Positions 32,682 through 62,561 of a DNA stretch of 64,000 nt are shown in pieces. Numbering within the stretch: position 1 is the stretch's first letter; the number at the start of each line of letters is the position of its first letter. This stretch comes from a virus, in the IMG/VR virus record IMGVR_UViG_3300044638_008494, positions 1 through 64,000 of that record; one strand, given 5' to 3'. Under the pieces are notes generated by a model that was given only the letters and a program-made list of their open reading frames with translations, had not been told where the DNA came from and searched no databases. The position numbers and the translations under genes are program-made.

Positions 32682-33758
32682 TTATTTAATATTTTCTAGT
32701 ATTAGATTGGTTGTTTTTTCCCATGTAAACTGTTCTTGTAGTTTCAAGCCAGCTTTATTTACTGGGTTGGATTTTGCTTTTTCAATAGCAACATCACATG
32801 CATCTAAAAATTCATCTACCGAGAAATCAAAAATATTTCCTTGATTAAAGGGCTGCCCTTCTCTGAAGAACATATTGTCATAGGCTGGCGTCTTTCCGTT
32901 TGGAGTTATACAAATGGTATTTTCATCAGTCATCCATTCTTTATAACCATGAGCTTTTAATCCAATGCAATGCTTTCCAAGGGCAACAGATGTAAATTCT
33001 GGTAGCCCCCATGTCTCTCCACCAGACATTGCTATCATAACGTGATTGGCATTTAAGAATTTATTATAATCTTCTTGCTTTTCCATCCATGGCAAAAAGT
33101 TTATATTGAAGAATCTCTTACCTTCAAGAGCCTGACCAATCATTGCGCTTTGATCTTCTTGTTTGAGAAAATTGTTATAAATAGCACAGTTTAAAAATAC
33201 ATCATGTCGATTGCCATATTTTTTTGCCCAAGCGTTTAATATTTTTAGATGGTGTTTTCTTTTTTCTAGCTTACCTGCTAGGCCAAAACAAATTCTATTA
33301 TCGGGATAATTAACATTGCTTACACTAAATGAGCTTGCATCGAATCCTAATGGAATAGTTTTGCATTTGATATCAAAGCTAGAAAACAAATCCGTATAAT
33401 GACTAGATGGAACAAAAACCATTTCTTGATTTTTTAATATATTAAGCTCTCTGGATGTCGGACTATCAAGTTCATAGAACGTATACAAATATTGCTTTTC
33501 AGAATAACTTTCCATACTTCCCATAATATGCCAAAGCTTGACAACTGGGGTATTTCTTGAGTGCAACTCTTCAGCCTTTATTGAATTTTCAACAATCCAT
33601 TTTACAAAACCCTGCTCTTTTTCAAGCATGCTATGGTCTGGCTGGCCAATATGAAAAATGTTTGGCTTTATATCTTTTTTATAGATTTCTCTGGCAATAT
33701 TATTTGAGCATTGCCCCAAACTTGTTTTGTTAAATGGAAAATGTAAAGAAAATTTCAT
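32682..33758 (-). CDS. Glycosyltransferase, GT-B fold, family 4-like
   Basis: KFSLHFPFNKTSLGQCSNNIAREI opens the acceptor domain. CKTIPLGFDASSFS and ICFGLAGKLEKRKHHLKILNAW mark the start of the donor domain. VMIAMSGGETWGLPEFTSVALGKHCIGL carries the E-x-x-x-x-x-x-E region that binds the nucleotide sugar in retaining GT4 enzymes. At 358 residues it is complete. It is the first gene of the long minus-strand glycan operon, after an intrinsic terminator that separates it from the SSB-like gene. Confidence 0.82.
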   Translation of the reverse strand: MKFSLHFPFNKTSLGQCSNNIAREIYKKDIKPNIFHIGQPDHSMLEKEQGFVKWIVENSIKAEELHSRNTPVVKLWHIMGSMESYSEKQYLYTFYELDSPTSRELNILKNQEMVFVPSSHYTDLFSSFDIKCKTIPLGFDASSFSVSNVNYPDNRICFGLAGKLEKRKHHLKILNAWAKKYGNRHDVFLNCAIYNNFLKQEDQSAMIGQALEGKRFFNINFLPWMEKQEDYNKFLNANHVMIAMSGGETWGLPEFTSVALGKHCIGLKAHGYKEWMTDENTICITPNGKTPAYDNMFFREGQPFNQGNIFDFSVDEFLDACDVAIEKAKSNPVNKAGLKLQEQFTWEKTTNLILENIK

Positions 33759-33790
33759 AAACGATAATATGCTTTGTATAAAAAAAATCT

Positions 33791-33820
33791 AAAAAAAAAT
33801 AGGCCCAAAAGGGCCTATTT
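33791..33820 (-). terminator. Intrinsic terminator after the SSB-like gene
   Basis: On the minus strand AATAGGCCC-TTTT-GGGCCTATT forms a 9-bp stem followed by a run of T residues broken only by a single AGA. It lies 20 bases after the end of the SSB-like gene and upstream of the glycosyltransferase at 32682, so it ends the sigma factor/SSB transcript. The hairpin is symmetrical, and a weaker U-run exists on the plus side. Confidence 0.85.
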
Positions 33821-33840
33821 TCATTAATTTACAACAATAA

Positions 33841-34134
33841 TCAAAACGGAATATCGTCGTTGTTAGACTCAACCTCATCATTTTGAGGTTTAGATGCCTT
33901 GCCTCCACCATCTTTTGCTGAAGAAGGTTTTAATGCCTCTTCTAGCTCAGAAAGAACTAGCCTATAATCTGGTTGATTTGGCTTTGTCTTATTATTCTTG
34001 AAGATAAATGCAGTATAATCATTACTGCCTATCTTTACCTTTCCAGATAGAAAGGTCTTTCCATTTTTTTCTTTTTTCCAGAAAGCTCCAATATCGGTTA
34101 GATCAGAGTTTCTATTTTCTGTATTTGTGCTCAT
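33841..34134 (-). CDS. SSB-like small protein with acidic C-terminal tip
   Basis: The 97-residue protein begins with IGAFWKKEKNGKTFLSGKV and DYTAFIFKNNKTKPNQPDYRLV, an arrangement like DUF736 proteins, and probably makes a small beta barrel. The C-terminus is a flexible Ser/Lys/Asn linker ending in SNNDDIPF. The acidic DDIPF tip is the protein-interaction tail of bacterial single-stranded DNA binding proteins. A role binding ssDNA or recruiting host SSB partners is likely. It lies 3 bases after the sigma factor gene and ends at a terminator. Confidence 0.6.
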   Translation of the reverse strand: MSTNTENRNSDLTDIGAFWKKEKNGKTFLSGKVKIGSNDYTAFIFKNNKTKPNQPDYRLVLSELEEALKPSSAKDGGGKASKPQNDEVESNNDDIPF

Positions 34135-34137
34135 AAA

Positions 34138-34743
34138 TTATAATATATCCATTGTTGTTGATGATTTCAATTTATTTCTTAAAAAGTCTATAAATTTATC
34201 ATGCCAGTTTACGACTGTTTGCGTAGATACTCCAAAATGGTCTGCTATTTGTTTGAATGTTTTTACTTTTTGTCCGCTGGAAAAATATCTCATTTTAATT
34301 ACTTCTTTTGCTGTTTCATCAGATGACAGATCTATAATGTCTTCGATATATTGAAGTATCTCCTTGTCTTTTTGGATGAGATCATTCTGTGCGGCAAAAT
34401 GATTGTCAGTTAAATAGTTTAGGATATCATCATTTAAATTTGTGTATTTCTTATTAGCATTGCATGCGTTTAGGCATGCGTATGTAATAACGTTACCGAG
34501 CCATGTAGAAAATTTTGTCCCACAAGAAGGATCGAATGTTTTTGCTGCATGGTAAATTAAAGAGTCTTTTTGCTCTTCTACATCCCTAGCGATTGTAGAA
34601 GTATTGTTGTAAAAATACTTATTATATATCTTGTAACAAATACCTGAATGTCTAGATATTAGCACGTTTAGCGCATCTGAGTTTTCATCTGATTTTACCT
34701 TAGTTATCAATTCTTGATCGTCTATAAATTTATCTGTTTCCAT
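34138..34743 (-). CDS. Phage RNA polymerase sigma factor, sigma-70 family
   Basis: Region 2 is visible: VLISRHSGICYKIYNKYF (2.1), then SLIYHAAKTFDPSCGTKFSTWLGNVITYACLNA (2.2-2.4, with the W-containing DNA-melting helix). Region 4 follows at the C-terminus: AKEVIKMRYFSSGQK and KTFKQIADHFGVSTQTVVNWHDKFI, a helix-turn-helix for the -35 element. At 201 residues it is a small sigma like phage late sigma factors. It probably redirects host RNA polymerase to phage late or middle promoters. Its own promoter is not obvious in the A+T-rich divergent spacer. Confidence 0.85.
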   Translation of the reverse strand: METDKFIDDQELITKVKSDENSDALNVLISRHSGICYKIYNKYFYNNTSTIARDVEEQKDSLIYHAAKTFDPSCGTKFSTWLGNVITYACLNACNANKKYTNLNDDILNYLTDNHFAAQNDLIQKDKEILQYIEDIIDLSSDETAKEVIKMRYFSSGQKVKTFKQIADHFGVSTQTVVNWHDKFIDFLRNKLKSSTTMDIL

Positions 34744-34790
34744 AAGTTGATGTTATACAATATTTTATTCTGAGTCTATTTAAAAAATAT

Positions 34791-34833
34791 AAAAACGCAA
34801 AGCGTTTTTGCGGCTTTGCCGCATTCTTTTTTC
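34791..34833. promoter_or_regulatory. Two back-to-back hairpins between divergent genes
   Basis: AAAAACGC-AAA-GCGTTTTT (34791-34809) and TGCGGC-TTT-GCCGCA (34809-34823) are adjacent perfect hairpins. The first has a U-rich run on the minus strand; the second is followed on the plus strand by TTCTTTTTT. Each therefore looks like an intrinsic terminator facing one of the two genes (sigma factor on the minus strand, membrane protein on the plus strand). They stand upstream of both, so they may insulate the divergent transcripts or act as leader attenuators. Confidence 0.6.
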
Positions 34834-34900
34834 TCAATAAACATTATTTATTAATAACATGTTTTTTTAGAAAAGTCAATATTATTTTATATAATCGGAT

Positions 34901-35266
34901 ATGTTAGAAAATATAGTAATCACCTGCTTTGTAATATCCATTATACAGTATTATATGTATATGACAAATGTAATTTGGGAATATTTAAACTTGTTATCGA
35001 AAATTATAAAAATTCCTAAATTTTTTGAAGGCACAATGCTTATTAGCGCTGCAAAGCTAGAGCCAAATTATTTAATGTTTATTAATTCAGTATATAATAA
35101 CTTTTTTACAAAATTAATTTCATGCCCTATATGTACAGGGTTTTGGATGTCTGTTATTGCATCATTATTGCTTGGTAATATACTTTTATTCGGGCCAATA
35201 GCTTACGTATCATTATGTCTTTATTTTTCAATAAAACTTTTGACAAATAGATCCTATAGAATATAA
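34901..35266 (+). CDS. Small membrane protein, DUF1360-like
   Basis: Two hydrophobic segments are visible: IVITCFVISIIQYYMYM near the N-terminus, and WMSVIASLLLGNILLFG with the following AYVSLCLYFSI near the end. SCPICTGFW between them matches the CP-x-C-x-G-(F/W) motif of the DUF1360 family, small membrane proteins common in phages. At 121 residues it is complete. A TATAAT-like element lies a few bases before the ATG. Function unknown; lysis control or superinfection exclusion are possibilities only. Confidence 0.6.
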   Translation: MLENIVITCFVISIIQYYMYMTNVIWEYLNLLSKIIKIPKFFEGTMLISAAKLEPNYLMFINSVYNNFFTKLISCPICTGFWMSVIASLLLGNILLFGPIAYVSLCLYFSIKLLTNRSYRI

Positions 35267-35272
35267 TCGTTC

Positions 35273-35755
35273 ATGCAAAAATCTTTATCTTTTTACAAGC
35301 CAAATAGCTACAATAAAGGATCTGCTGGTCAGTTCCAATATGGAGCAAAAGACGGCGATTTTGGATTATATGTCAGCATAGTTAAACAGGCTGCATGGAA
35401 TACAGATACAAAAAGGGGGTCTTTTTCTGAAAACGCTAAGAATCCATCTAAAAATAAGAAAATAAAACTTAACGCTACAGAAGCTGCGGCTATGTCTAGG
35501 GTTATCTTGTGTGATGTTGACAAGTGGTCTAGCGTTCATAGAAGTGAATCCAAAACAACATCTATAATGTTTTCTCACTATATAAAGGATAATGCCAAAC
35601 TAGGGTATGGATTTTCTATATCAGAAAAGGATGGGGAATCATTCATGCTCAGTTTAAATAATGACGAGGGCTATGTTTTAAAGAATTTTCTTGAAGAATA
35701 TATCAAATTCACATTTAATAAGCAGCAACTTAATACACAACAAGAAAAGTTTTAA
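35273..35755 (+). CDS. Hypothetical protein
   Basis: The 160-residue protein starts QKSLSFYKPNSYNKGSAGQFQYGAKDGDFGLYVSIVKQAAWN. An internal basic segment (KNPSKNKKIKLNATEAAAMSRVI) is followed by a beta-rich part (SIMFSHYI..YGFSISEKDGESFMLSLNNDEGYVL) and a helix. The strand order recalls small ssDNA-binding or transcription-coactivator folds, but no motif is decisive. It is 6 bases after the membrane protein gene and shares one base with the next gene, so the plus-strand genes form an operon. Confidence 0.45.
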   Translation: MQKSLSFYKPNSYNKGSAGQFQYGAKDGDFGLYVSIVKQAAWNTDTKRGSFSENAKNPSKNKKIKLNATEAAAMSRVILCDVDKWSSVHRSESKTTSIMFSHYIKDNAKLGYGFSISEKDGESFMLSLNNDEGYVLKNFLEEYIKFTFNKQQLNTQQEKF

Positions 35756-37707
35756 TGAGAAAGAAAAGAGTTTTGTTTTTAACTGACTATTCCGGAGTAA
35801 ATACCGGTTTTGGTAAAAATATAAAATTACTATTATCGTATTTATATAAAACCAATAAATACGAATTATTTCACGCCGCATGTGGAGTCGGAGATAATAA
35901 TCCAGAATTTGAACGCTTTCCTTGGAAAACTATTGGAGTCATACCAAATGATCAGGCATTTATTCAAAAAATGCAGCAAGATCAGCATTTCGCTCGAATT
36001 GCCAGCTATGGAGAGCCACAGATAGCAAAGATTGTAGAAGAAACAAAGCCAGATGTGGTATTTGCCATTCAAGATAGTTGGGGGGCGCTATTTGTTGCTG
36101 ACAAGCCATTCTTCAAAAGAATTCCAACAGTTTGCTGGATTACTTTTGATAGCTTGCCATTATTGCAAGATACCATTGATAAAGCAGACAAGATCCAGAA
36201 CTACTGGACATGGTCTGATTTTGCAGAGCATGAATTTCATAGATTGGGATTCAAGCATGTTAAAACGCAATATCCATTAACAAACACTGACCATTTCTAT
36301 CCAATAAGTAACGAAGATAAGTTTAATATTAGAAAAAGGTTTGGAATATCTCAAGATTGCACTATTTTTGGTTTTGTTTTTAGAAATCAATTGCGAAAAT
36401 TAGTTGGCACCTTGATAGCTGGATATGCAGAATTTTTAAAGCATAATCCCGATATGGTAAACAAATCAAAACTACTTCTTCACACCCATTTCGGAGAAGG
36501 ATGGGATATAATGAGATTTGTTAAACAATACAACATACCATTTGAAAATATACTTTGCACATATGTTTGTAAAGAAACAAAACAATATTTTATACATCCG
36601 TATGTAGGCCAAGATGTCGAAAATCCTATTACAAAAAATAAAACTCTCATCACTGCAAACGTTTCAATCGGAGTTACTGATGCTCAATTAAACGAGATTT
36701 ACAACATAATGGATGCATATCTACACCCTGCCACCTCTGGGGCGTGCGAAATTCCTATTGTTGAAGCTGCGCTAACTGAAAAGATAGTATCCACATGTGA
36801 TTATTCTTTTGGGTGGAATGTAGTCAACCATAATAAAGGCTGTATCCCTATGGAGTATTCATTTTACAATGAACCTCCTATGGGATCAAATACGCAGTTT
36901 TTAAAATCTCAACCATTCCCCTCTTCTGTGGCAAAAATAATGAAAAAAATTTGCGAAATGAAAACGCAAAAGAGAAGAGAAATGGAGATGGCGTCTAGAA
37001 AATGGGCTTTAGAAAACTATTCGGTTGATGTAAATGGTAGCAAAATAGAGGCATTTATTGATAGTCAAAATCTTATTGAAGATGAGAATGCATGGCTTGA
37101 TAAAGAAGACAAAAAAATAAATCCAAATGTTCAAATTGAAAATATCCAAGATAACTTGCAATGGATTGTTCAACTTTACAACAAAATATTAGATGCTCAT
37201 CCTGATAATAATGATGACGGCGTAAAACATTGGATGACTCAATTGGAAAGGGGCATGCCTAGAGAAAATATAGAAAAATATTTTAGAGATATTGCCAATA
37301 AGGACATGCAAAAAGAAGAGAAATCTTCTTCCTTAGAAGATCTGTTTGATAAAGATGATAAGGCAAACAAATTGAAAAGATTGCTAATAGTTCAGCCGCA
37401 AAGTGCTGGTGACATATTTTTAGTAACGGCACTTTTGGAATCCTTGAGATTAAAATTTCAATCAGATAAGTGGAAAATTTACTTTGCGTGTGACCCAAAA
37501 TTTGCAGATATTTTATTCGGAAATCAAAATATAGACAAAATTATCCCATATCATCAAATTATGGATAATCAAATTGCAATGGAGGGTCACGGCGATCATC
37601 TTGGTTATGTTGATATATGTTTAAATCCATATTTTTCAACACAAAGACTTTTAAATTATACCCACAATGGATATAGTATTTGTCAATTTGATAATAAACT
37701 TAATTAA
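35755..37707 (+). CDS. Large glycosyltransferase: GT4-like, DUF4214-like and N-terminal half of a GT9-like domain
   Basis: Residues 1-430 are a GT-B enzyme of the GT4 kind: LFLTDYSGVNTGFGKN at the start, IFGFVFRNQLRKLVGTLIAGY, and YLHPATSGACEIPIVEAALTEK in the donor site. Residues about 470-520 (LYNKILDAHPDNNDDGVKHW...GMPRENIEKYF) resemble DUF4214. From about 540 a GT9 start appears (LLIVQPQSAGDIFLVTALLESL, VDICLNPYFS), but it breaks off at a TAA. The rest of that domain starts four bases later in the next gene, in the same frame. Both proteins may act as one unit or the gene may be broken. Confidence 0.75.
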   Translation: MRKKRVLFLTDYSGVNTGFGKNIKLLLSYLYKTNKYELFHAACGVGDNNPEFERFPWKTIGVIPNDQAFIQKMQQDQHFARIASYGEPQIAKIVEETKPDVVFAIQDSWGALFVADKPFFKRIPTVCWITFDSLPLLQDTIDKADKIQNYWTWSDFAEHEFHRLGFKHVKTQYPLTNTDHFYPISNEDKFNIRKRFGISQDCTIFGFVFRNQLRKLVGTLIAGYAEFLKHNPDMVNKSKLLLHTHFGEGWDIMRFVKQYNIPFENILCTYVCKETKQYFIHPYVGQDVENPITKNKTLITANVSIGVTDAQLNEIYNIMDAYLHPATSGACEIPIVEAALTEKIVSTCDYSFGWNVVNHNKGCIPMEYSFYNEPPMGSNTQFLKSQPFPSSVAKIMKKICEMKTQKRREMEMASRKWALENYSVDVNGSKIEAFIDSQNLIEDENAWLDKEDKKINPNVQIENIQDNLQWIVQLYNKILDAHPDNNDDGVKHWMTQLERGMPRENIEKYFRDIANKDMQKEEKSSSLEDLFDKDDKANKLKRLLIVQPQSAGDIFLVTALLESLRLKFQSDKWKIYFACDPKFADILFGNQNIDKIIPYHQIMDNQIAMEGHGDHLGYVDICLNPYFSTQRLLNYTHNGYSICQFDNKLN

Positions 37708-37710
37708 AAT

Positions 37711-38943
37711 ATGTCACACTTGCTTGAATCATACAGCCTTCAAACTGGGGCAAAAATTTCTAAACCCTTCATAGTTAAAAATTTTTACCCTACTCCAGAA
37801 AAATATATAACAATTCATAATTCTAGCGGAATGGGGGCAAAAAATTATGATTATTTTCAAGAAGTAATTGATCATTTGATTCCATTCTTAAAAAAGAAGG
37901 GCATTGATGTGGTGCAAATTGGCGGAGAAGAAGATAGGCCAATAAATGGCTGCATCCATATTCAAGGAAAAACAAGCTATCATCAAACTGCATTCGTAAT
38001 ACAAAACTCATTACTCCATATTGGAAATGATAGCTTTCCTGTTCATATAGCATCTGCTGCTGATATTCCTATAATTTCATTATATAGCGTAACACTACCA
38101 TCTATTGCTGGTCCATGCTTTAATTCTAAAGATGTATTTAATGATAAGGTCTTTTGTTTTACGCCAGATTTTAATGGTAAAAAGCCGTCATTCAATCCAA
38201 ATGAAAGTCCCAAATTAATTAATGATATTAAAATAGAAAGCATAGTTGAGGCTGTAGACAAAGTGCTTGATTTGGGTTACAATAAAAAATTAAAAACAAT
38301 TTTTGTTGGAAATAAATATCAAGCGCAGGGTATAGAAATTGTTCCTGATGCTGTTCTAAGTAGTGACTTTGCTAAAGGATCACCTGCATTATTAAGAATA
38401 GACTTATTAAATTCAGAAGTCGATGATGCTATTATTTATCATAATTTGCAAGCAAGAAAGCTTGGGATTAAAATGTCTAATCTAAAAAAAGTGAAAGACT
38501 TGAATGTTATTTATTCAAACAAAAACAATCTTATAGAGATTGTTTTTGATATAGACCATGGATATGACAAAAAGTATCTAGAGCAGTTATCATCAATATA
38601 CCCAAATGTCATAATTTACTATTCTGGTGATGACGATGTTTTTTTCAATAAAACTAAATTAGACCTAATTGACTTGAATTTAAAATTTTTCCGACAAAAA
38701 AATGAAACAGAAAAAATAACTGATTTGCATTTAAAAATACAATCCGCAATAAAAGACGACTTATGGATTCAAACAAATCGATTAATCCTAGCAAAAAATA
38801 AAGTTTATTTATCTGAAGCACATTTAAGAGAAGACAAGCCATCTAATGATAAAAAAATAAAATTAAATAGTTTGACAAATATATCAAATATGTCTATATC
38901 TGATATAGACTTCTTTTTAATCTATCAAGAAAGTAAAAAATAA
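37711..38943 (+). CDS. C-terminal half of a GT9-like domain plus unknown domain
   Basis: Residues 30-170 continue a GT9 fold that began in the previous gene: YITIHNSSGMGAKNYDYF, then VVQIGGEEDR and LLHIGNDSFPVHIASAADIPIISLY, the donor-binding D-x-x-x-H-x-A motif. Residues after about 200 form a second, repetitive alpha/beta segment without clear relatives. The frame is the same as that of the upstream gene, separated by TAA-AAT-ATG, and no Shine-Dalgarno sequence is seen. It therefore looks like the product of a stop codon inside one ancestral gene, or of a natural readthrough/reinitiation site. Confidence 0.65.
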   Translation: MSHLLESYSLQTGAKISKPFIVKNFYPTPEKYITIHNSSGMGAKNYDYFQEVIDHLIPFLKKKGIDVVQIGGEEDRPINGCIHIQGKTSYHQTAFVIQNSLLHIGNDSFPVHIASAADIPIISLYSVTLPSIAGPCFNSKDVFNDKVFCFTPDFNGKKPSFNPNESPKLINDIKIESIVEAVDKVLDLGYNKKLKTIFVGNKYQAQGIEIVPDAVLSSDFAKGSPALLRIDLLNSEVDDAIIYHNLQARKLGIKMSNLKKVKDLNVIYSNKNNLIEIVFDIDHGYDKKYLEQLSSIYPNVIIYYSGDDDVFFNKTKLDLIDLNLKFFRQKNETEKITDLHLKIQSAIKDDLWIQTNRLILAKNKVYLSEAHLREDKPSNDKKIKLNSLTNISNMSISDIDFFLIYQESKK

Positions 38944-51391: not shown

Positions 51392-54300
51392 TTATGCAGT
51401 CTGACCATTTTTAGTTTGTAATCCAGCAATTTGCCTATTAACAGCATCAATTGCCGATGCAAGTTCTGCTCTTAACTGCTCTTGAACTTCCGATATTTTT
51501 GCTCCAACCTCAGCAATTGCCTCTTCAGACATTGATACGTCTATTTTAAAATCAGTACTAATATCAACAGGAAAACTAATATCTTGATTTAAAGTCATTT
51601 CTTTTCCACCATCTTCTACTGGCTGCTGAGATACCTCTCTCTGTGGTGACTCTTGAACTTGCTTAGTTTGTTCTTCAACTATTCCACTATTTTTATTAAC
51701 AGCCTCACGACTACCATCTAATGACTTTTTCAATTCCCTTATTTCTTCTTTTCCTTGCTCGATATTTTTAGGAGGGGCCATCGGGGCTTGAGGCTCAACT
51801 CCGATTGGCGGTTTTGATTCTGGGTTAAAATTTGGATCATAATACCCTAATCCCCCATCTGGCTGTGGAAACATTTTCGGAGGAGGAAGCGTTGGTTTAG
51901 GAAATTGAGGAAAAGCTGGGCTTAACAAAGGAGACTGAGGTGTATATGGTCGAGTTAGTGGCCCACCAATTGGCTGCAATGGAGATTGGATTTGTGGATC
52001 CGCAAATTGACCAACCAAAGGATTAACTCCTCGATTTGTAAATGGAGACGCAGTAGGTGGAACATATGGTGAAACTGCGGGGTTATTATAAGGAAAAGGC
52101 TTTGGAGCCTGAAGCGGCATACCCACGCTACCAGCTCCACCCTCTCCGAAATTAGGATCATAAAATCCTTGACTTCCATCAGGCTGAGTAAATGTTTGCG
52201 GCGGAGGAAGCGTTGGTTTAGGAAATTGAGGAAAATTAGGTCTTGGCGTCAATACTTCTCGCATATTTTCCGCTGACCCACCCAACATAACAGATCCTTC
52301 TAGCGCACTTACTATCTTATCTCCATTTAAATCTATAGCACCTATCATTTTTATAGCAAATGGATTAAGAGAATTTTCTAAAACAGACTTTATAATCGGC
52401 ATAACGTCAGTCGCCATTGTTCCATCTATACCCTTGTTTAACATACCATCTCTGGAAGCATTTGGGGCTTGATATGGCATTTGCGACAATAATGATGTTA
52501 CATCATAAGTGTTTCCAGCCTTTAACTCATCTCTTAAATACTGTATTACTGATATCATTTTATCATCTGATATTTTTTGTCCAGCCAGTAATGCGTCAAT
52601 TGAAGATTTTAATTGTTGCTGAAAATCATCGACATTTTTAATTTCAGAATTTGCATTCTGGCTCTTTTGTACGGCGAGCTGATTTACGGACCGACCAGTA
52701 TCGGTCGCCTCCACTTTTAATTCGTTTTTCAAATATTTAGAAAAATTTTCTTTTAAACTATCCGCAAACTCTTTTCCATACTTATTCATAGCATCAACTG
52801 CCAATTTATTATTTGGATCTGCCCTCCATTGGGTTAACTGCTCTTTTGTCATTGATTGAGACCATTGGCCCGACATTCGACCTTCTTCATTAAACATTTG
52901 ATGTGTTTGATATTTATCTCCCCAACTTAACAAATCAGCACCAGGATCATCTGGTCCGTAGTTGTATTTCCTACGAACTACATTTTGATAATTTTTTTCT
53001 TCAATTTCTTTTATTATTTCTTGAAATGATTTTCCTAATGGGCCACTTGATGCTCCTGATATGTTTGTATTCGGAAGTTTATTTAAAATTTGTTTTAGTA
53101 TAGAAATATTTTGAGCTACAGCTTGGTCTTGCTGCGCTTGAGATGCTTCCATTGCTTTAGCGGCCGCTGGGCTTATAATTGTAAAATTTCCGCCACTAGA
53201 GCCGCCAACGCCACTAACACCACCAACGCCGCCAGCACTACCAGCACCACTAACACTGCCAGTAGTAGCTGCTCCCCGCATTGCTGCTTTTATTGCACTT
53301 GCGGCTGCTGTGCTTGTTATTGGGGGATTTGTTGTGGCGCTTCCTCTAGCATTAGACTGCATACTAAATGCACCGCCAGAAGTTGATGGGCATAATGCAT
53401 TAATAGCTGTTTGCGCACAATTTGCCAAATTTAGTAATTTTTCCGCAGCATTATCTGCTTCTTTTTGTAATCCAGTAAAGGCTTGTTGTGAAAATTTATC
53501 CATATTTATTCCCACATATCCAATAGATTTAACCAGATCTTCAGCTGCTTGATTGAATGGGTTAGCAAATTTTTGCCCAGGCTTCATACCGCCAAACTGC
53601 TGATTAACCATATCAACCACATTTGCTCGACCCAATCCCTTTAAATTACCCAAACCAATAGCATCAAGGTATTCATCGGATTGATCTTGCAACATTGCTG
53701 TTAATCTTGATCTTTCTCCTCTTTGGTAATTTTCTGGAATTCCAAGAGCTTCCATAGCTTCTAATCTTCTGATTGACTGTTCGCGCTCGAACTTGTCCAT
53801 TTCTCTTTTATATTTTAATGGCCCAATTTCGCCAGCTTGGTATGCCCTACGAAGCTCAGTTCCCTCCATTTGTGTTGGGTCAAATCCTGATAATCCAGAA
53901 ACCCCACCAGCATATCCTTGCATTTTTTGCATGCGATCATTAAATCTACCAACTGCAATATCGAATGCCTGTTGAACTTTTTGTGCAGCATTGTTAAAAT
54001 CTATATTTTGTAGCGCCTGTTTTAAATTAAAATTTGCATCTTCAAGGCTTTTCTCATATGCGTCCTGCAGCCCTTTAGGCAATTTTGATAAATCAATTTT
54101 TTGTATATCTTCTATAGTTACAGCTTTTGCAATTTGTTCGGATACATTTTGCAAATCTACAACCTCTCCACGGTTAGCAGATGTTGTTAAATCTGCATTT
54201 TTTATATTATCTTGCAATTGCGGAACAAATGATCCCTTTAATGTATCAGCCGCTTCTTTACTTGCTTCTATAAAATCAATATAACTTTGCTGATCAATTC

Positions 54301-57300
54301 TTGCTGCGCCAATTGCCGCTTCTTGTTCAAAAGATGGGGTTCTGTACTGCATAATCGCAGTATCAGTTTGCGTGGCTAAGCCTAAATTAAATTTAGGTAT
54401 ATCTATTTTTAAAATTTTATTTAAGCTTCCTATTAATTTTGCAGAATTATCAAGCGCGTTTTTATTTTTTCTAAAATTATTAATATAATCTTGAACTACT
54501 TGTGGCAATTGTGAAATATTTTTTCTACTCTGTTCTTCAAGTCGAAGAGTATTTTGATTTTCTTCTAAACGCTTTTTCAAATTTTTAGATAAATCTTCTG
54601 ATAATCCTCTTAATTCTGCAGGTGATGCTTTTTTAAATGCTTCTTTTAATTTTTCAAGTTCTTCTGCGGTGCCTTCCCCGCCTTCTTTCAACATGCTTAA
54701 AATATTATCAAATTCTTCTCCAATACGGACCGCGTCAAATCCTTTTAATTTTTCCACCGAAGGAATTACCTTGTTTAACATGTCTATGCGGCCCTTAGTA
54801 TCAACATCTTCTCCACCGGCATAATCAAATGTAGATAAAATAGAATCAGCAATTTTTTTAGATTGATCTTTTCCTATATTGGTCCATGATGTTATAAATT
54901 CTTTACCAATATCTGTAGTTAACGATTCAATATTTGCACCTCTTGTTTGATCTTGTATATATTTAGCTAAAATTTCTTGCTGTTTTGCAACATCATTTGT
55001 CGCAGATATTTGGTTTTGTATGCTTGGTGGCAACTTTGATAATTGTCGCAAGTATTCATTTTCTGCTCTTGTTATATCTTTAATTGGGGCATTGGATTCA
55101 GTTAAATCACTTAATTTTTCTCTAGCTATTAGTAATCCTTGCGTAGACTCTTGTGCTCTTTGTGCATTTTCTGTTGCTTTTTGAACTCTTTGAGATGCAT
55201 CGCCCAATCCATTTATAGATAATGCTAGCGCATCTACAATTGGCTTTGCTGATAATGCAGCTCCAACTATTCCTCCTATTATTGCGCCTGGTGCTCCACC
55301 GCCAACTGCCGCGCCAGCCCCTGCAAAACCACCAATATTGCCTAATCCAGTCAAAAGTGACCCCGCAACTGTTTGATCTCCACCAGCTATCTGAGATCCT
55401 ATTCCGCTTGCTGTTTGAAGGGCGAATCCCAACCCCAAACCTTTATTTTTTGCAAACTCATCAAACCTTTCTCTTTTAGTCAAGCTTCGTTTATTTATAG
55501 CAGATTGAATTGTTGCTGCTCTTTCTTCAGATTTGGCCTGATCTCTCGCTACACGCTCTCTTCTTTTTTCCCTTTCTATTTGACCAGCCATTCCAGTATC
55601 TGTCCATGTCCCTGCTTGGGCATTATATAATGTAGGATTTTGTCTGGCTGTATTTTCCTGAATATCTAATTTTTGCAAAAGCTTGTTTTGCCTATTTATT
55701 CTTTGCTGGTTAGATTCAAATGCTTGATCTAATGTTTGTCCGGTGGATTTTAGTTCTCCTTTTAATTTTCTTAATTCTTTTGCTCCATCATCCAGCTGTC
55801 CTCCAAAAAATGCTAGAGAAAATAGCAATCCAGAAATTGATGCTGAAATTGCTGTAAAATCTGTTGCTCCAGAGGTGAAATTTGTTGCTCCAGAGGTGAA
55901 ATTTGTTTCATTATCTCCTGCGGCAAAATTTGGAATGAATCCAGAAGAGGCCAATAATCCAGCACCTTTCTGCATCTCTGCAGAATCCTTCATGGCGCGA
56001 TTTTTTCCACCATGTTGGCGCATAGCTGAGGCAAACGAAGGCTGACTTTTATTTCTTACGTGCAAGAATGGCTTATCATCTATTACGGCTTTTTTTCCAG
56101 AAATAGATTCTTCTAAAGCAATAACTTCTTTGACATACTGATCTGATTTTGCAAAATTTGGTATAAAACCAGAAGCTGCCATATCAGAAGTTTTGCGTAT
56201 ATTTTGATTATAATTTCTTAATTCTTTTATGGCCATTGGGCTACTAGCCAGCGACTGCAAATCCTTATCTGATAAGCCCAACTCTTTTGCTCCTTGAACA
56301 AGTGGCTTGTATTTTAAATCTCCGATCTTAATTGCGTCCAGATTAAATCCAGCATTAGATTTAGATCCGTACAGCAGTTCTTTAAATTTATTTAACTTGT
56401 CTGGCGTTCCAAGTTTTAACAACGATCCTTGCTGTATTCTTGCCAAGGCAGATTGTGCCGCAGATCTTTCTCCAAGGGTAGCGCCGCGCTTCATCAATTC
56501 TTGAATTGCTTGTATATTTACAAAATTTGGTATAAAACCAGAAGCAAATTTACCAACATTCGGCTGACTTTCAGATGCAATCCTCTTAGCCATATGTCCA
56601 AATACTATTGGGTCAATAAGCCCTACTTTATTTGTTTTTATTAAACCTTCTGGAGAAATTCCACCTTCGCGCGCCTGTATTTGCGCTTCTTTTGGAAGTG
56701 GGCGCATAAATGTAAAATTCGCTGATGAGGCAGTATCTAAAGCTAATGCTTGCAACCAATTTGGCTTTTCGCTTACAGACCTTTTTGCACTCTCAAATCT
56801 TGAATTGACAATAGCAATTAAAGATTTTTCTACCTCATAATCGTTAATTTCATCTTTAAATGTATTACCAGCAAATCTTTGCGATGTTACCAATGAGTTA
56901 CCAGAGACTCTTCTTAAAGGCAATAATTGTAAATTTGAATCAGTTTTTTTTAGTTGCCTTGTAGCTTTTGCCCAATCTATTGAACCAATATCTCTTAATT
57001 TACCTCTTTGTTGCATTGGGGACTTGTAATCTAAAGTCGGTAATTTTAGAACTTTACTTCCGGTTTTAAACGCATGAGATTCTGCCCCACTGCCTAGATA
57101 TTGTAAATCAGGATATTGTTGATATAATTTATTTATACGCTTTTCAACTGCTGGTTTTTGTTTAATCTCCTCAAAATTAAACGAACTCTTATTTCGTATT
57201 TGCTCTAAAATTGGGCTATCTGCAAAATTTGGTATAAACCCACTTGCCATAGCAAACATCCCTTGCTGGTTTGGATATTTTTTTGCAAATATTGCTCCTA

Positions 57301-60300
57301 ATTTTGCTACAATATCAGGATCTCTTAAAGCTTCTTGTGGCAATCTATTCTTTTTGACAAAGTCTTTAATCCATTGTGCTTGAAATTTATTTCTTCCAGC
57401 CATCATTGGATTTGCTGCAAATGCTGGAATAAAACCATCGGCAGCGCCAGAAGATTGTAACGCTGCCATTCTTTTCTCTACTTCTATTTCAAACTGTGAT
57501 CGCGCTCCTCCCCTTCTAAGAACTAGCCCTTCTTTTCTAATACTTTCAATAGCTTTTATTCTAAGAGCCTGAACTTTTCCAAAACCAGGCCCACTTTTTA
57601 CTTGTTTAACTGCACCAGGTTTTGCTTCGTTGAGTAATTTTTGCATTACTTCATTAGTTGCACCCGATGAGCTTTTTGCATCATACATTCCAGGCGCACC
57701 ATGAAATAATTTTCTTAATCTTGGCGTTATTCTTTCTTGTCTAAAATCAATACCAGCATTTTGAGAAGTTTTTTGTAAGCCTTGCTGAAGTAAAGTAATT
57801 AATCCACCCTCGAAGGCAACGCCAACGGCACCCTCTGCTGCTCCATAGTTAGGAAGATCTTTTGGTGATTTTAAAAAGTTTTCACCTCCTAAAACTTGTC
57901 CGAATTGATTCGCCTCACGAACAAGTAGGTCGCCTAAATTTTTTTTCAAATCAGGGAGCTGGCCTTTAATAACATCTTTATTAATTCCAGCAACCGGTAT
58001 TAGCCCTTTGTATTTTTTGCCAAGATACGAACCAGCGCCCGGTGCCATTGTGTAACCTTCAGAAATATTAGGATAAATAAGAGATACAACCTTGCCATTT
58101 AATGCTTTAGATGTTCTCGTATCACCAAGATCAATAATTTCATCGCCTTCCTTTGATGATTTGGCAAAATTTGGTATAAAACCAGAAGCTGCATTTGGAA
58201 CAACCAATTTATAATTGCTTGGCATAAAAATATTATCCTTTTGTGGAGGATTTTGTTTTTTGCTTTTTCCGTAATTAGTTTCAATAACTTTAGAAATTAA
58301 ATTATCGTTGTCTATTGTTCCAAATTTCACCTCGCCCACTGGTTTTCCTTTTGAATTTAATAGGTCCATTCTTGCAGTTTTTGATTCTGCAACTTGCAAA
58401 CCAAGACGATTCGCAGCAAATCTCTCGAAATATTTACCAACAAGATCATTTTTTACCCCAGTGAATTGTCTGTCCTTATTAACTAATTTTGTATTGCCAG
58501 ATAATAAGCTAGGAACCTTTTCTTTATTTGTGAGCAAATTTTGTTTTAACTGGCCAATTTGTTTTATAGAATACCCATTTCTTGTAAAATATTTAACAGC
58601 AGTCTCTGATAGCTTTGAATCTTTGGAATTTAAATTATTTAATTGTTTATCAAATTGATTTTCAAATGAAGATCTACTACCAATCGAAATAATATCAAAT
58701 GAAAATGGAGAATATGTATCTAAACCCTTATTTGCTACTTGAGATGATTGTACTCCAGTTATAGTACCACCTGGCAAAGATTTTTTATTTTTTGGTTGTG
58801 CGAAATTTGGCACAAACCCAGATGCAGATATTTTTTTAGCTCCATCAGGTAGACCATATTTGCTTTTCATTTCCCTATTCCATACAGCAGTTCCATCACC
58901 ACCACCATAATTAGGAACAGCCCATTCTCCAGTATGAGCCACCATTGTCCCCTTTTTATTATTTCCCATTGGGAAATTTTTCATTACAACTGGTCTATCT
59001 TTTGCTGGATTTGCGTCACCAACTCTATTATTAATATTATTTTGCTCTGCTGCTAGATGCGGCAAAAAGCCACCAGCCGCAGTTTTAACCTTAGAACCTC
59101 TTTGTGTTATAAAAGATTTTCCACCCACGTTTTGCACACCAACTTGAGACGCTGTTGTTTTTGCTATCTGTGCTGCTATAGAATTTTGCTTTTGCAACTC
59201 TATGGTTTGCTGCTTTACAATTTCTAAATATGCTTTTGCCCCAGAAGCAACAGAGGCTTGGCCGCTAGATATTGCCTTGTATATACTAGCATTATTTTGT
59301 AAAAATTTTACAACACTTTGCTGTATTACTGCTTGTTCTTTAGCTGCTTGATTTACCCCTAAAATACTTTTAAAAGCTTCAACACCATATCTAGAAAATT
59401 CTGCAAATAGTTTAACTACCGCTGCCGTTACCAAAGCAAGCCCTGGTCCGCCAATAAAATTTCCAATTCCGCTTATTATTCCGCTACCAATTTTTGCACC
59501 AATACTATCAGCATCAACATTGTTCACGGCACCAGTGAGAAATTCAGAAATATTTAAAACATTTTTTGCAGCTGGCTCAAAAAGTCCACCAGCAATATTT
59601 CCTCCAGCTTGCTGTATATTTGCCAAGGCACGCGTACCTCTAGCAGAAAGTGTTTCATTTAATTTTTCATTACGCCTTATGGCCTGATCAGTAGTTCCAA
59701 GTGATGTTTTTAAAGCTTGGTCATATATTGAATATTCCTTACCAAGATCTCCCAGCGCAGCTTTTAATACGTTAATTTGGAATACACCGCCAACCTGCTC
59801 AGCTACATAGTTTTTTTGCGTTGCAGATAATCCATCGTAAACACTAGCAAGTTCTTTCAATAATTGTACTTGCGTTTTTACATTACCCTCGGCATCTGTA
59901 GATTGTATGCCTAGCCCACCCAAAACTTCTTGTGTTTTTTCTCTACCAAGTCTTGTAAATATAGTTTTTAATGAGTTACCTATAACAGCACCGCCTCGAG
60001 CCGTAACTTGTTGCGCGGTGGTTACTAAAGCGATCAACTCATCAAAAGAAATTCCAGCATCATCAGCGGAAGATCCAACGCGGCTAAGTGCGTTTGCTAA
60101 ATCCGCAGAACTAACAGCAAAAGCAGCATCAACGTTAGCTAGTTTATTTACAATTTCAGTTGCTTGTAGCGCAGATCCCCCAAACGAGTTGATTGCGGCT
60201 GTTAATGCAGATACGCTAGCGGCGGCATCCAATCCACTTAAACGTGTTAAGATCAAAGCCGCTTCTGTTCGCTTTAATGTTTCTTCTACCCCAAGACCTT

Positions 60301-60718
60301 GACGAGAAAGTTCCGTAGCAGCTTCGGCAACCACATCAAACGATTGCGCTGTGTTCCCAGCGATATCGAATAATGAAGCTCCAAATTTCGCTAAATTTCT
60401 ATCTGTCAAATTTAACAGAACATTAACATCTGCTAATTTTTTTTCTACATTTACAAATGTATTAAATAAAGAAGTAACAGCGCTTTGTATCGCAAAGATT
60501 GCACCAGCAGATGCAGCAAAGGCAATAACGCGCGCGTTCGCTGCGGCCAAAGACTTGTCGATTTCTTGTATTTGACCGCTAATTTTGCCCAATGGCTGTG
60601 CTGCGCCACCTGCTGTTTGAATATTTAGAGTAACACCTTGCTTGGCAACCTGATCAATTTGCCGCCTAAGTTTCGCGGTATTACCATCAACATCTACTCT
60701 GATATTTGGATTAGCCAT
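51392..60718 (-). CDS. Tail tape measure protein with embedded nuclease- and kinase-like modules
   Basis: The 3108 residues set tail length and reach the host during infection. Residues 90-330 are the TP901-type tape measure core (IAGNTAQSFDVVAEAATELS, GISFDELIALVTTAQQVTARGG). Residues 548-1599 hold eight copies of a nonapeptide near ASGFIPNFA. Between copies lie a PD-(D/E)XK-like module (E765, D785, E796, K798), a second like it (E970, D991, D1013, K1015) and a kinase-like module (LGSGAES at 1208-1214, K1225, D1369). A Gly/Ala-rich, glycine-zipper-like stretch is near 1780-1830, long helices follow, and a Pro-rich region lies near 2830-2950. The length is unusually large. Confidence 0.93.
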   Translation of the reverse strand: MANPNIRVDVDGNTAKLRRQIDQVAKQGVTLNIQTAGGAAQPLGKISGQIQEIDKSLAAANARVIAFAASAGAIFAIQSAVTSLFNTFVNVEKKLADVNVLLNLTDRNLAKFGASLFDIAGNTAQSFDVVAEAATELSRQGLGVEETLKRTEAALILTRLSGLDAAASVSALTAAINSFGGSALQATEIVNKLANVDAAFAVSSADLANALSRVGSSADDAGISFDELIALVTTAQQVTARGGAVIGNSLKTIFTRLGREKTQEVLGGLGIQSTDAEGNVKTQVQLLKELASVYDGLSATQKNYVAEQVGGVFQINVLKAALGDLGKEYSIYDQALKTSLGTTDQAIRRNEKLNETLSARGTRALANIQQAGGNIAGGLFEPAAKNVLNISEFLTGAVNNVDADSIGAKIGSGIISGIGNFIGGPGLALVTAAVVKLFAEFSRYGVEAFKSILGVNQAAKEQAVIQQSVVKFLQNNASIYKAISSGQASVASGAKAYLEIVKQQTIELQKQNSIAAQIAKTTASQVGVQNVGGKSFITQRGSKVKTAAGGFLPHLAAEQNNINNRVGDANPAKDRPVVMKNFPMGNNKKGTMVAHTGEWAVPNYGGGDGTAVWNREMKSKYGLPDGAKKISASGFVPNFAQPKNKKSLPGGTITGVQSSQVANKGLDTYSPFSFDIISIGSRSSFENQFDKQLNNLNSKDSKLSETAVKYFTRNGYSIKQIGQLKQNLLTNKEKVPSLLSGNTKLVNKDRQFTGVKNDLVGKYFERFAANRLGLQVAESKTARMDLLNSKGKPVGEVKFGTIDNDNLISKVIETNYGKSKKQNPPQKDNIFMPSNYKLVVPNAASGFIPNFAKSSKEGDEIIDLGDTRTSKALNGKVVSLIYPNISEGYTMAPGAGSYLGKKYKGLIPVAGINKDVIKGQLPDLKKNLGDLLVREANQFGQVLGGENFLKSPKDLPNYGAAEGAVGVAFEGGLITLLQQGLQKTSQNAGIDFRQERITPRLRKLFHGAPGMYDAKSSSGATNEVMQKLLNEAKPGAVKQVKSGPGFGKVQALRIKAIESIRKEGLVLRRGGARSQFEIEVEKRMAALQSSGAADGFIPAFAANPMMAGRNKFQAQWIKDFVKKNRLPQEALRDPDIVAKLGAIFAKKYPNQQGMFAMASGFIPNFADSPILEQIRNKSSFNFEEIKQKPAVEKRINKLYQQYPDLQYLGSGAESHAFKTGSKVLKLPTLDYKSPMQQRGKLRDIGSIDWAKATRQLKKTDSNLQLLPLRRVSGNSLVTSQRFAGNTFKDEINDYEVEKSLIAIVNSRFESAKRSVSEKPNWLQALALDTASSANFTFMRPLPKEAQIQAREGGISPEGLIKTNKVGLIDPIVFGHMAKRIASESQPNVGKFASGFIPNFVNIQAIQELMKRGATLGERSAAQSALARIQQGSLLKLGTPDKLNKFKELLYGSKSNAGFNLDAIKIGDLKYKPLVQGAKELGLSDKDLQSLASSPMAIKELRNYNQNIRKTSDMAASGFIPNFAKSDQYVKEVIALEESISGKKAVIDDKPFLHVRNKSQPSFASAMRQHGGKNRAMKDSAEMQKGAGLLASSGFIPNFAAGDNETNFTSGATNFTSGATDFTAISASISGLLFSLAFFGGQLDDGAKELRKLKGELKSTGQTLDQAFESNQQRINRQNKLLQKLDIQENTARQNPTLYNAQAGTWTDTGMAGQIEREKRRERVARDQAKSEERAATIQSAINKRSLTKRERFDEFAKNKGLGLGFALQTASGIGSQIAGGDQTVAGSLLTGLGNIGGFAGAGAAVGGGAPGAIIGGIVGAALSAKPIVDALALSINGLGDASQRVQKATENAQRAQESTQGLLIAREKLSDLTESNAPIKDITRAENEYLRQLSKLPPSIQNQISATNDVAKQQEILAKYIQDQTRGANIESLTTDIGKEFITSWTNIGKDQSKKIADSILSTFDYAGGEDVDTKGRIDMLNKVIPSVEKLKGFDAVRIGEEFDNILSMLKEGGEGTAEELEKLKEAFKKASPAELRGLSEDLSKNLKKRLEENQNTLRLEEQSRKNISQLPQVVQDYINNFRKNKNALDNSAKLIGSLNKILKIDIPKFNLGLATQTDTAIMQYRTPSFEQEAAIGAARIDQQSYIDFIEASKEAADTLKGSFVPQLQDNIKNADLTTSANRGEVVDLQNVSEQIAKAVTIEDIQKIDLSKLPKGLQDAYEKSLEDANFNLKQALQNIDFNNAAQKVQQAFDIAVGRFNDRMQKMQGYAGGVSGLSGFDPTQMEGTELRRAYQAGEIGPLKYKREMDKFEREQSIRRLEAMEALGIPENYQRGERSRLTAMLQDQSDEYLDAIGLGNLKGLGRANVVDMVNQQFGGMKPGQKFANPFNQAAEDLVKSIGYVGINMDKFSQQAFTGLQKEADNAAEKLLNLANCAQTAINALCPSTSGGAFSMQSNARGSATTNPPITSTAAASAIKAAMRGAATTGSVSGAGSAGGVGGVSGVGGSSGGNFTIISPAAAKAMEASQAQQDQAVAQNISILKQILNKLPNTNISGASSGPLGKSFQEIIKEIEEKNYQNVVRRKYNYGPDDPGADLLSWGDKYQTHQMFNEEGRMSGQWSQSMTKEQLTQWRADPNNKLAVDAMNKYGKEFADSLKENFSKYLKNELKVEATDTGRSVNQLAVQKSQNANSEIKNVDDFQQQLKSSIDALLAGQKISDDKMISVIQYLRDELKAGNTYDVTSLLSQMPYQAPNASRDGMLNKGIDGTMATDVMPIIKSVLENSLNPFAIKMIGAIDLNGDKIVSALEGSVMLGGSAENMREVLTPRPNFPQFPKPTLPPPQTFTQPDGSQGFYDPNFGEGGAGSVGMPLQAPKPFPYNNPAVSPYVPPTASPFTNRGVNPLVGQFADPQIQSPLQPIGGPLTRPYTPQSPLLSPAFPQFPKPTLPPPKMFPQPDGGLGYYDPNFNPESKPPIGVEPQAPMAPPKNIEQGKEEIRELKKSLDGSREAVNKNSGIVEEQTKQVQESPQREVSQQPVEDGGKEMTLNQDISFPVDISTDFKIDVSMSEEAIAEVGAKISEVQEQLRAELASAIDAVNRQIAGLQTKNGQTA
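51882..52235 (-). repeat. Direct repeat in the proline-rich part of the tape measure
   Basis: A 33-base sequence is identical at 51882-51914 and 52203-52235, embedded in longer similar units coding FPQFPKPTLPPP followed by a QPDG-x-x-G-x-YDPNF segment. The repeats are 321 bases apart, in a region rich in Pro, Gln and Phe near the protein's C-terminal end. They suggest duplication of an extended linker. Confidence 0.9.
55862..55903 (-). repeat. Tandem 21-bp repeat inside the tape measure gene
   Basis: The 21-base unit TGTTGCTCCAGAGGTGAAATT (plus strand) occurs twice without spacer (55862-55882 and 55883-55903), encoding NFTSGAT twice. A diverged third copy (NFTSGATDFTAIS) follows in the protein. 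It lies directly after the last ASGFIPNFA-type nonapeptide. It may be a recent slippage product in a flexible linker. Confidence 0.95.
55922..59077 (-). repeat. Eight dispersed copies of an ASGFIPNFA-like nonapeptide in the tape measure
   Basis: Copies begin at residues 548, 632, 844, 1093, 1158, 1392, 1515 and 1591. Sequences are AGGFLPHLA, ASGFVPNFA, ASGFIPNFA, ADGFIPAFA, ASGFIPNFA, ASGFIPNFV, ASGFIPNFA and SSGFIPNFA. Spacings of 65-249 residues correspond to separate globular modules. Nucleotide conservation is lower than protein conservation, so selection acts on the peptide. Known tape measure proteins without such cargo do not need these elements, and a processing site, shared binding site or unfolding linker could explain them. 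Confidence 0.9.
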
Positions 60719-60788: not shown

Positions 60789-61775
60789 TCAGCTCTTGCT
60801 AGCCAATTCGTATATTCCCATGCTTCCCTTTGTTTGGGATTCAGAAATTATTTTATCTCCCAATATATCACCGCCAGCAATGCTTTTAACGTCATCCCTA
60901 TCTCCAAATAAGAAAGTAGATCCCTTATTTCCTTTTTTATTTTTACTGGTAGATTCTACTCGTTTCCTATTCTTTAAAGATTCAAGCCATTGATCTAATT
61001 TATCGGGGTTATCGTAAACCCCATCTGGAATTTCAGCGTCAGAGTTTTTAATTATATTTTGATAATATTTCCCCCAAATTAAAACTTCATGCTGATTTTT
61101 TGTTAGTTTTATTACTGGCTTTCCAAACACTTCCATAGATGTGCTCCCTATATACAAGATATTTTGAAAATGATGAGATATGGCTGTTTTTTTTATTATT
61201 TTAGAAGAGAAATCGGATAAATATTTAAAATAGTAATATGTTGCCCAATCTAAGATATTTTCAGACTCTTCATCTAGATTTTTATTAAATAATAACTCTT
61301 TTAAATCTTCATTTTTAAATAAAAAATTTTGCAAGAAAAAATCAGAAGTTTTTTTTGTGGCCCACTCCTCTGATGTCATTACGATAAAGGATGATCTTTC
61401 TTTATTTAACTTATCTAATTTTTCATGCTCAGAATTAACTTGCTCGTCAATACGCTTTTTATCAGAATCATAGATTAGTTTTGATCTTGTTGTATTTAAT
61501 CTATTAATTGTTGATTTTAATATTCGAATTTGATTCTCTTTTTCTTCACTCCACCACCCATATTTGGATGCAAGCGCCACCTGATCTTCTTCTCCAAGTA
61601 TTCCATTAACGCTGGCTTCATTTAAAAATCTATCATAAATATCTCTTATCTGAAGAGACTCTGATTGGGTTAAATGCTTTAAGTATATTTTTCCGTAATT
61701 TTCTATTTGGTATACGGAATAGCCATTAGATATATCTTCAAAAACGGCCAATACATCAACACTTTGGCCACTCAT
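60789..61775 (-). CDS. Tail assembly chaperone-like protein, second of pair
   Basis: The 328-residue, largely helical and charged protein (YGWWSEEKENQIRILKSTINRLN, DEQVNSEHEKLDKLNKERSS) is between a chaperone-like gene and the tape measure gene, the position of the longer tail assembly chaperone in many phages. Its frame is the same as that of the preceding 258-residue protein, from which it is separated by TAA and three codons (TAA ACT AAC ATT ATG). A weak GAGGAA ribosome binding site lies about 15 bases upstream. The C-terminal 60 residues are Lys/Gly-rich (NKKGNKGSTFLFGDRDDV). Role by position only. Confidence 0.5.
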   Translation of the reverse strand: MSGQSVDVLAVFEDISNGYSVYQIENYGKIYLKHLTQSESLQIRDIYDRFLNEASVNGILGEEDQVALASKYGWWSEEKENQIRILKSTINRLNTTRSKLIYDSDKKRIDEQVNSEHEKLDKLNKERSSFIVMTSEEWATKKTSDFFLQNFLFKNEDLKELLFNKNLDEESENILDWATYYYFKYLSDFSSKIIKKTAISHHFQNILYIGSTSMEVFGKPVIKLTKNQHEVLIWGKYYQNIIKNSDAEIPDGVYDNPDKLDQWLESLKNRKRVESTSKNKKGNKGSTFLFGDRDDVKSIAGGDILGDKIISESQTKGSMGIYELASKS

Positions 61776-61784
61776 AATGTTAGT

Positions 61785-62561
61785 TTATTCCTCGCTTGGC
61801 TTTGTGTCTTCTATTTTATTTTCTTTATTTTCTTCAGTATCAGCGGCAGTACTGTCATCTGCTGATCGATTTGACCCAGAATCGCTATCTTTAAAATCTT
61901 GCCAATTCGAGATTCTGTTTAAAAACCAAAGCGTAATTAAATAATTAAATCTTTGACCAACCTTTATAATAAAGGCTTCATCTTCATTGTCTGGATCAAG
62001 CTGATCATACCAGTCCAGCATTTCATCGTAATTTTCACCATTAAAAAACTGCTCGTCTTCGCTTTTATAAGCTAATTGTGTTAACCACCATTGGATGGTT
62101 GCATTTCTTGCCTTAGCCTCTGCCGTATTTTCAAAAATGTAAATTTGCTCAAGCTCAAATGTTTGAATCTCCCTTTTTGATTCTTCAATTTGCAATTCAA
62201 GTTTTGCTTTTTGAAGTTTTTGTTTATTATCTAATTCGGGCAATTGGTTTAATTTGTTCAACTCGATACTTGATTCAAAAAATGTTCTTTTGGCTTTAGT
62301 ATAATCCTCTGCTTCAGAGTTTGAAATTGTTCCTCCTAAGTTTTCTAAAATAGTATTCCAAGCGGCTTTTGGCAATAGGCCAGCCTTAACAAAGCTCGCT
62401 AACTGTTTTGCGTATTCAACTTCGCCAAGTTGCCGCAAGCTTCTTGATGGTTTTAAAATATAAAATCTTTTCTCTTCATTCTTATTGTTTTTAGCAATGA
62501 ATGAGTAAATCCATTTTTTAGTATCAAAGTCCGGTTTATCCTGCACATCATTATTATTCAT
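61785..62561 (-). CDS. Tail assembly chaperone-like protein, first of pair
   Basis: The 258-residue protein has a first half that recalls proteins folding around tape measures: WIYSFIAKNNKNEEKRFYILKPSRSLRQLGEVEYAKQL, then FVKAGLLPKAAWNTIL. A long coiled segment (KQKLQKAKLELQIEESKREIQTFELE) is followed by LITLWFLNRISNWQDF. A very acidic Ser/Asp/Glu tail (DSTAADTEENKENKIEDTKPSEE) ends it. By position, between tail tube and tape measure, it resembles gpG-type chaperones. No slippery frameshift site is evident, unlike the classical system. Confidence 0.5.
   Translation of the reverse strand: MNNNDVQDKPDFDTKKWIYSFIAKNNKNEEKRFYILKPSRSLRQLGEVEYAKQLASFVKAGLLPKAAWNTILENLGGTISNSEAEDYTKAKRTFFESSIELNKLNQLPELDNKQKLQKAKLELQIEESKREIQTFELEQIYIFENTAEAKARNATIQWWLTQLAYKSEDEQFFNGENYDEMLDWYDQLDPDNEDEAFIIKVGQRFNYLITLWFLNRISNWQDFKDSDSGSNRSADDSTAADTEENKENKIEDTKPSEE

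Follow-up and report, generated by a model that had tools for sequence, protein, structure and literature searches.

A phage tape measure protein with an internal array of linker-bounded modules, two of them nuclease-like

The window analysed here is a stretch of 64,000 nucleotides (positions 1 to 64,000) of the IMG/VR virus record IMGVR_UViG_3300044638_008494, which comprises 107,022 bases in all and encodes DNA polymerase III alpha, DnaB, a RecA-like protein, glycosylation genes and PhoH; the terminase and capsid genes of the record are recognizable by weak matches only. A long reverse-strand gene in the window encodes a tape measure protein (table 1). PhageMin_Tail (PF10145) scores 101.6 bits, against a Pfam cut-off of 33.2, at residues 121-311 of the 3108-aa ORF, and nine PHROG tape-measure families match the same ORF (best 1.6e-42). 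The product is a genuine tape measure protein, as the first-pass annotation of this DNA had proposed, and both the single open frame of that annotation and all ten of the residues it named are found where it had placed them. At its N-terminus the protein resembles tape measure proteins, SPbeta-like ones among them, at only ~25-32%. Elsewhere in the window, a GDP-mannose dehydratase and several glycosyltransferase-like genes lie at 18188-19237 and 32682-38943; modification of glycans, or of the phage's own virion, may be the role of such glycosylation-type genes.

A short peptide of the type (A/S)SGFIPNFA occurs eight times in the protein and partitions its residues 550-1599 into modules. These linkers start at G550, G634, G846, G1095, G1160, G1394, G1517 and G1593; ASGFIPNFA is their commonest form, and their general form is (A)(A/S)xG[FY][IV]PNFA. 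The cargo array that they delimit follows the N-terminal tape-measure domain, which extends to about residue 545, and precedes the remaining ~1500 residues. The first-pass annotation had read enzyme-like segments into residues 641-843, 853-1092 and 1167-1391, and the borders of all three fall on linker peptides, which it had left unnamed. We take the HTGEWAVPNYGGG element of module 0 (window 58823-59053) to resemble the GEYVIP-type loops of other tape measure proteins, and the linker may have originated from a loop of this type.

Table 1. Features of the tape measure gene and its cargo array, in window coordinates
Feature	Residues	Position	Strand	Remarks
Two ORFs (328 and 258 aa) directly upstream of the tape measure gene		60789..62561	(-)	A family with a window ORF recurs upstream in relatives
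Tape measure protein		51392..60718	(-)	Single open frame, 3108 aa; PF10145 and PHROG profiles
PhageMin_Tail (PF10145) domain	121-311	59786..60358	(-)	Pfam match, E 6.7e-29
Linker 1, GFLPHLA	550-556	59051..59071	(-)	Degenerate
Module 0, Gly-rich element (HTGEWAVPNYGGG)	556-632	58823..59053	(-)	Seen in many relatives
Linker 2, GFVPNFA	634-640	58799..58819	(-)	
Module 1, PD-(D/E)XK nuclease-like (E765, D785, E796-V-K798)	641-843	58190..58798	(-)	
Linker 3, GFIPNFA	846-852	58163..58183	(-)	
Module 2, PD-(D/E)XK-like (E970, D991, D1013-A-K1015)	853-1092	57443..58162	(-)	Commonest cargo family
Linker 4, GFIPAFA	1095-1101	57416..57436	(-)	Degenerate
Module 3	1102-1157	57248..57415	(-)	Without enzyme signature; 7 matches in tape measure ORFs, window counted
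Linker 5, GFIPNFA	1160-1166	57221..57241	(-)	
Module 4, possible kinase N-lobe (LGSGAES, K1225)	1167-1391	56546..57220	(-)	Orphan
Linker 6, GFIPNFV	1394-1400	56519..56539	(-)	
Module 5	1401-1513	56180..56518	(-)	Orphan, without enzyme signature
Linker 7, GFIPNFA	1517-1523	56150..56170	(-)	
Module 6	1523-1590	55949..56152	(-)	Frequent last module before tape measure sequence resumes; 46 matches; without enzyme signature
Linker 8, GFIPNFA	1593-1599	55922..55942	(-)	

Relatives were collected by three scans of viral contigs with back-translated linker patterns, each locus being counted once. At least 301 viral loci carry the linker, at least 219 of them with two or more strict copies within one ORF; the first copy at each locus is imposed by the scan itself and the extra copies are independent of it, and some loci are adjacent pieces of one contig, so that not all of them are independent phages. 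In bacterial and archaeal genomes searched with the first linker pattern, a single one of the 119 loci among the matches listed is multi-copy. The 274 ORFs collected hold 739 strict linker copies (shuffled versions of those proteins hold none), and the conservation of the linker is confined to a core of ~10 residues, the flanks not being conserved. The tape-measure N-terminus of the window is matched by 182 of the 274 ORFs, many of the rest being incomplete, and the first linker lies at a median position of 595 in window numbering (IQR 520-602; 147 ORFs that could be measured). Module 0 has 92 matches across the 274 ORFs, one protein family recurs upstream of linker-bearing ORFs (201 neighbours) and a downstream family recurs too. 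By these sequence criteria, the linker-bearing ORFs are tape measure ORFs from one uncultured phage lineage. No relatives of the module region were found among 50,697 phage records (INPHARED), representatives of module 2 from other loci matched none of the phage isolates' records, and Xylophilus phage Lumi, an isolate whose tape measure N-terminus is distantly similar, has no linkers. The one multi-linker locus among the genome-collection matches listed (L320:1-3960) is a contig of 4 kb binned with a Proteobacteria MAG and probably of phage origin; it is a weak hint at a host, and naming a host from genome contigs was dropped, one multi-copy locus being too weak a basis.

The segments between linkers fall into one very large, lineage-specific family (115 segments, the family of window module 2) and many small families and singletons, in 77 distinct cargo combinations among the relatives; module 2 stands beside 19 different neighbour labels. 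An SNase cargo (L101:8760-9341; 38.4 bits, Pfam cut-off 21), which keeps DGDT...RL..VDA.E, and a GNAT cargo (L065:6774-7307; 22.2 bits, cut-off 20.7) were assigned by Pfam, and all other cargo families by motif reading, not by Pfam cut-off. The latter include two further nuclease-like families (GRvFE...D...EaK and FE...DF...GDaK), a HAD-like family (DxDxT...T...K...DD), an ADP-ribosyltransferase-like family (YRG...S...E.E, in the tape measure ORFs L264:2532-3278(+) and L087:214-1263(-)) and a P-loop family of ~157 aa (L105:3943-4413(+) and 12 related segments) that often immediately precedes a module 2-type domain. Kinase-like motifs (GxG...VGVKKF...E...DLHGSNY...DPG) occur in the tape measure ORFs of further relatives (L026:3864-4439(-), L046:2625-3200(+), L056:7387-7971(-) and L427-L433), and this cargo found no match in the PDB by profile. 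The cargo families of relatives each appear to retain a complete catalytic-type residue set. As to enzyme variety, the window holds two modules that are nuclease-like by motif only, and the relatives hold SNase and GNAT above cut-off as well as HAD, ART-like and kinase-like motifs. Weak Pfam matches to Diphtheria_C (0.13) and LepB_N (0.048) lay below cut-off and were judged to be chance.

A loose E...D...(D/E)xK pattern is present in 194 of 294 cargo segments as against ~137 of 294 shuffled ones; because shuffles give it so often, the bare pattern was dropped as evidence. It is conservation, not the occurrence of the pattern, that separates the nuclease-type residue set from chance. Across 66 aligned module 2 sequences, D991 and K1015 are invariant, position 1013 always has D or E, and position 970 has E 64 times and D twice. 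Three of these four motif residues rank within the four most conserved of 262 alignment columns, and the most conserved columns are those of the motif acidic and Lys residues together with G966 and F969. When modules 1 and 2 were aligned together for structure prediction, the module 1 homologues were drawn onto module 2; the joint alignment was therefore discarded and module 2 was modelled alone. The AF2 model (pLDDT 86.7, pTM 0.71) is an alpha/beta domain and not the helical spacer that the first-pass annotation had named as the outcome that would speak against a nuclease in this segment; E970 lies on one of its helices, and D1013 to K1015 at strand 167-170 of the model. Foldseek found no match for the model at E<=0.001 in the PDB or in BFVD (viral), hence none to a restriction enzyme, and we therefore name the family PD-(D/E)XK-like only. 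Profile searches of PDB sequences, NCBIfam and PADLOC likewise gave module 2 no significant match to a known nuclease family, and no member of the family reached a nuclease model in Pfam; for this module, such an outcome is one that the first-pass annotation had listed as counting against its proposal. Nor was module 2 ever found as a separate small gene among the 50 phage records searched: its profile matches 35 of them, always inside frames of 1687-4643 aa. The residue set thus supports a putative PD-(D/E)XK-like, metal-dependent enzyme, which the fold comparison does not confirm.

A different reading of module 2 is that it represents a metal-binding enzyme, or a binding domain, of another or new fold that shares the E/D/(D/E)xK set. 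This reading concerns module 2 alone and is compatible with tail-borne cargo. It would account for a confident model without a significant PDB match and for the few strands in the core around D991, but the order and spacing of the motifs are as in PD-(D/E)XK enzymes, hhalign pairs the module 2 profile with that of module 1 at the motifs FE and D (P 0.0005, probability 33%), and the same profile weakly matches other cargo with the E/D/(D/E)xK set (e.g. G020:67103-67372, E 1.3e-6). We consider another fold somewhat unlikely, if far from negligible.

In module 1, the canonical set reads LVGKYFE(765)...RMD(785)...GE(796)VK(798), and E765, D785, E796 and K798 are invariant across three divergent sequences, namely the window module and two distant cargo modules (the homologues L004:157-891 and L051:4645-5355). 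A weak alignment with the restriction enzyme Eco15I (E 0.56) places the Glu, Asp and ExK of the module opposite the helix Glu, AD and QIK that form the active-site motifs of that enzyme (PMC11347163); an antibody chain outscores Eco15I, matching another part of the module. The homologues, the Eco15I alignment and the hhalign alignment with module 2 are each a weak pointer when taken alone. The PD-(D/E)XK claim for this segment thus finds its backing in an ordered E/D/ExK set conserved in three sequences, and its profile side amounts to the Eco15I alignment and a DUF6998 match (0.007) below the Pfam cut-off.

The protein kinase that had been proposed for residues 1167-1391 could not be established. 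LGSGAES, K1225 and D1369 are all present in module 4, which has no homologues among the collected cargo segments and tape measure ORFs; its profile alignment with the kinase-like cargo of relatives was no better than shuffles (Z 0.36), and single-sequence hhalign among kinase-like segments gave nothing. Because a MAFFT alignment with the kinase-like cargo misplaced the glycine loop, and was rejected, and because of the Z of 0.36, the module was folded as a single sequence. The resulting model has a pLDDT of 37.6 overall and of 66-77 at residues ~1190-1229, where LGSGAES and K1225 lie on a three-strand hairpin plus helix. A helix with three strands is the expected look of a kinase N-lobe, and on this model a kinase is possible.

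We propose, with a probability of roughly 60%, that the window encodes a siphovirus-type tape measure protein with a cargo array inside it, and that this array, with at least two PD-(D/E)XK-type nuclease-like modules, travels with the tail, is ejected with the tape measure protein and acts early. The modules would most likely travel in or on the tail together with the tape measure protein and be ejected along with it, either ahead of the DNA or at the same time; in the early phase of infection the nuclease-like modules would target nucleic acid or defences of the host. The linker would probably serve as a recognition or hinge element allowing module exchange, and cutting at linkers could possibly free the modules. 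Against delivery, ~1000 extra folded residues in several copies are hard to fit in a tail tube. Siphovirus tape measure proteins exit the tail at infection. For the lambda protein, labelling at the inner membrane while the genome is being injected has been reported (PMC13190303), and from such behaviour we infer delivery of the array.

Alternatively, the protein may be a polyprotein whose linkers are cleavage sites, the modules being freed in the producing cell for late infection or assembly and not delivered by the tail. Short, near-invariant linkers with unconserved flanks do resemble a recognition sequence, and DdrB of phage P1, a packaged polyvalent protein, is reported to be proteolytically processed (PMC5512222). 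However, no gene for a protease that could cut the linkers was recognized, either adjoining the window's tape measure gene or among the recurrent neighbours, most neighbours being unannotated, and a nuclease would be of little use to a protein made late, at assembly; we regard this alternative as unlikely. That the inserts are structural only, degenerate sequences serving without catalysis as tail-lumen filler or as tail-tip or assembly domains, would suit the tolerance of tape measure proteins for insertions, the want of an enzyme signature in window modules 3, 5 and 6 and the want of a fold match for module 2, but it is improbable given that acidic and Lys residues, with nearby Gly and Phe, are the top conserved columns in 66 divergent module 2 sequences and that unrelated cargo families each retain their own catalytic-type residue set.

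Tail-borne arrays of this kind share features with several known systems. In the MuF polymorphic toxins of temperate phages, a structural protein of the phage reportedly bears toxin domains that vary; the MuF carrier is said to be associated with the head and to have its toxins at the C-terminus, whereas the arrays here are internal to a tail protein and belong mainly to uncultured phages. Hydrolase-bearing tape measure proteins such as SPbeta YomI have a homologous N-terminal domain and likewise carry extra enzymatic domains. Cell-wall hydrolase domains of tape measure proteins help the tail to cross the wall; unlike those of the YomI type, the domains here are nuclease-, SNase-, HAD-, ART- and kinase-like. 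The polyvalent proteins of phages and conjugative elements combine many enzyme domains in one polypeptide, which is believed to accompany the DNA into the host (Iyer et al. 2017, PMC5512222). The arrays appear to resemble them in having several enzyme-like domains per polypeptide and in overlapping domain types (ART, ParB and peptidases, for example, are described there; PMC5512222), but polyvalent proteins are capsid-packaged or conjugation-borne, whereas here a tape measure protein acts as the carrier and one standard peptide bounds the modules; neither "tape measure" nor "linker" occurs in the text of that paper (PMC5512222). The Sle1-type effectors of actinobacterial contractile injection systems are tape-measure-related, modular proteins with exchangeable functional domains, as here, loaded in a phage-tail-like particle (PMC13277306); they come from bacterial contractile injection systems and not from infectious phages, and the abstract makes no mention of a linker array (PMC13277306). 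No published description of tape measure cargo arrays, or of the GFIPNFA peptide, was found in the open-licence literature, where absence is no proof. In a survey of mosaicism, genuine cases among tape measure proteins could not be confirmed (PMC10684548); the present arrays look like clear examples of them.

We see about even chances that the arrays form a widespread and so far undescribed tail-borne effector platform, in which a fixed cargo slot with IPNFA-type punctuation would hold interchangeable enzymes (nucleases, SNase, and ADP-ribosyltransferase-, kinase-, phosphatase- and acetyltransferase-like proteins) that would reach the cell together with the tape measure protein. That hundreds of related uncultured phages carry the same kind of string with different enzymes points to phage tails as an exchangeable carrier of early-infection proteins. 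If this is true, the tail, beside the capsid, would carry a variable enzyme set for use as infection begins, and, since a short peptide marks the start and end of each module, the cargo of metagenomic phages could be listed by sequence search. With the arrays, the passage of folded enzymes along with a tape measure protein can also be put to a direct test.
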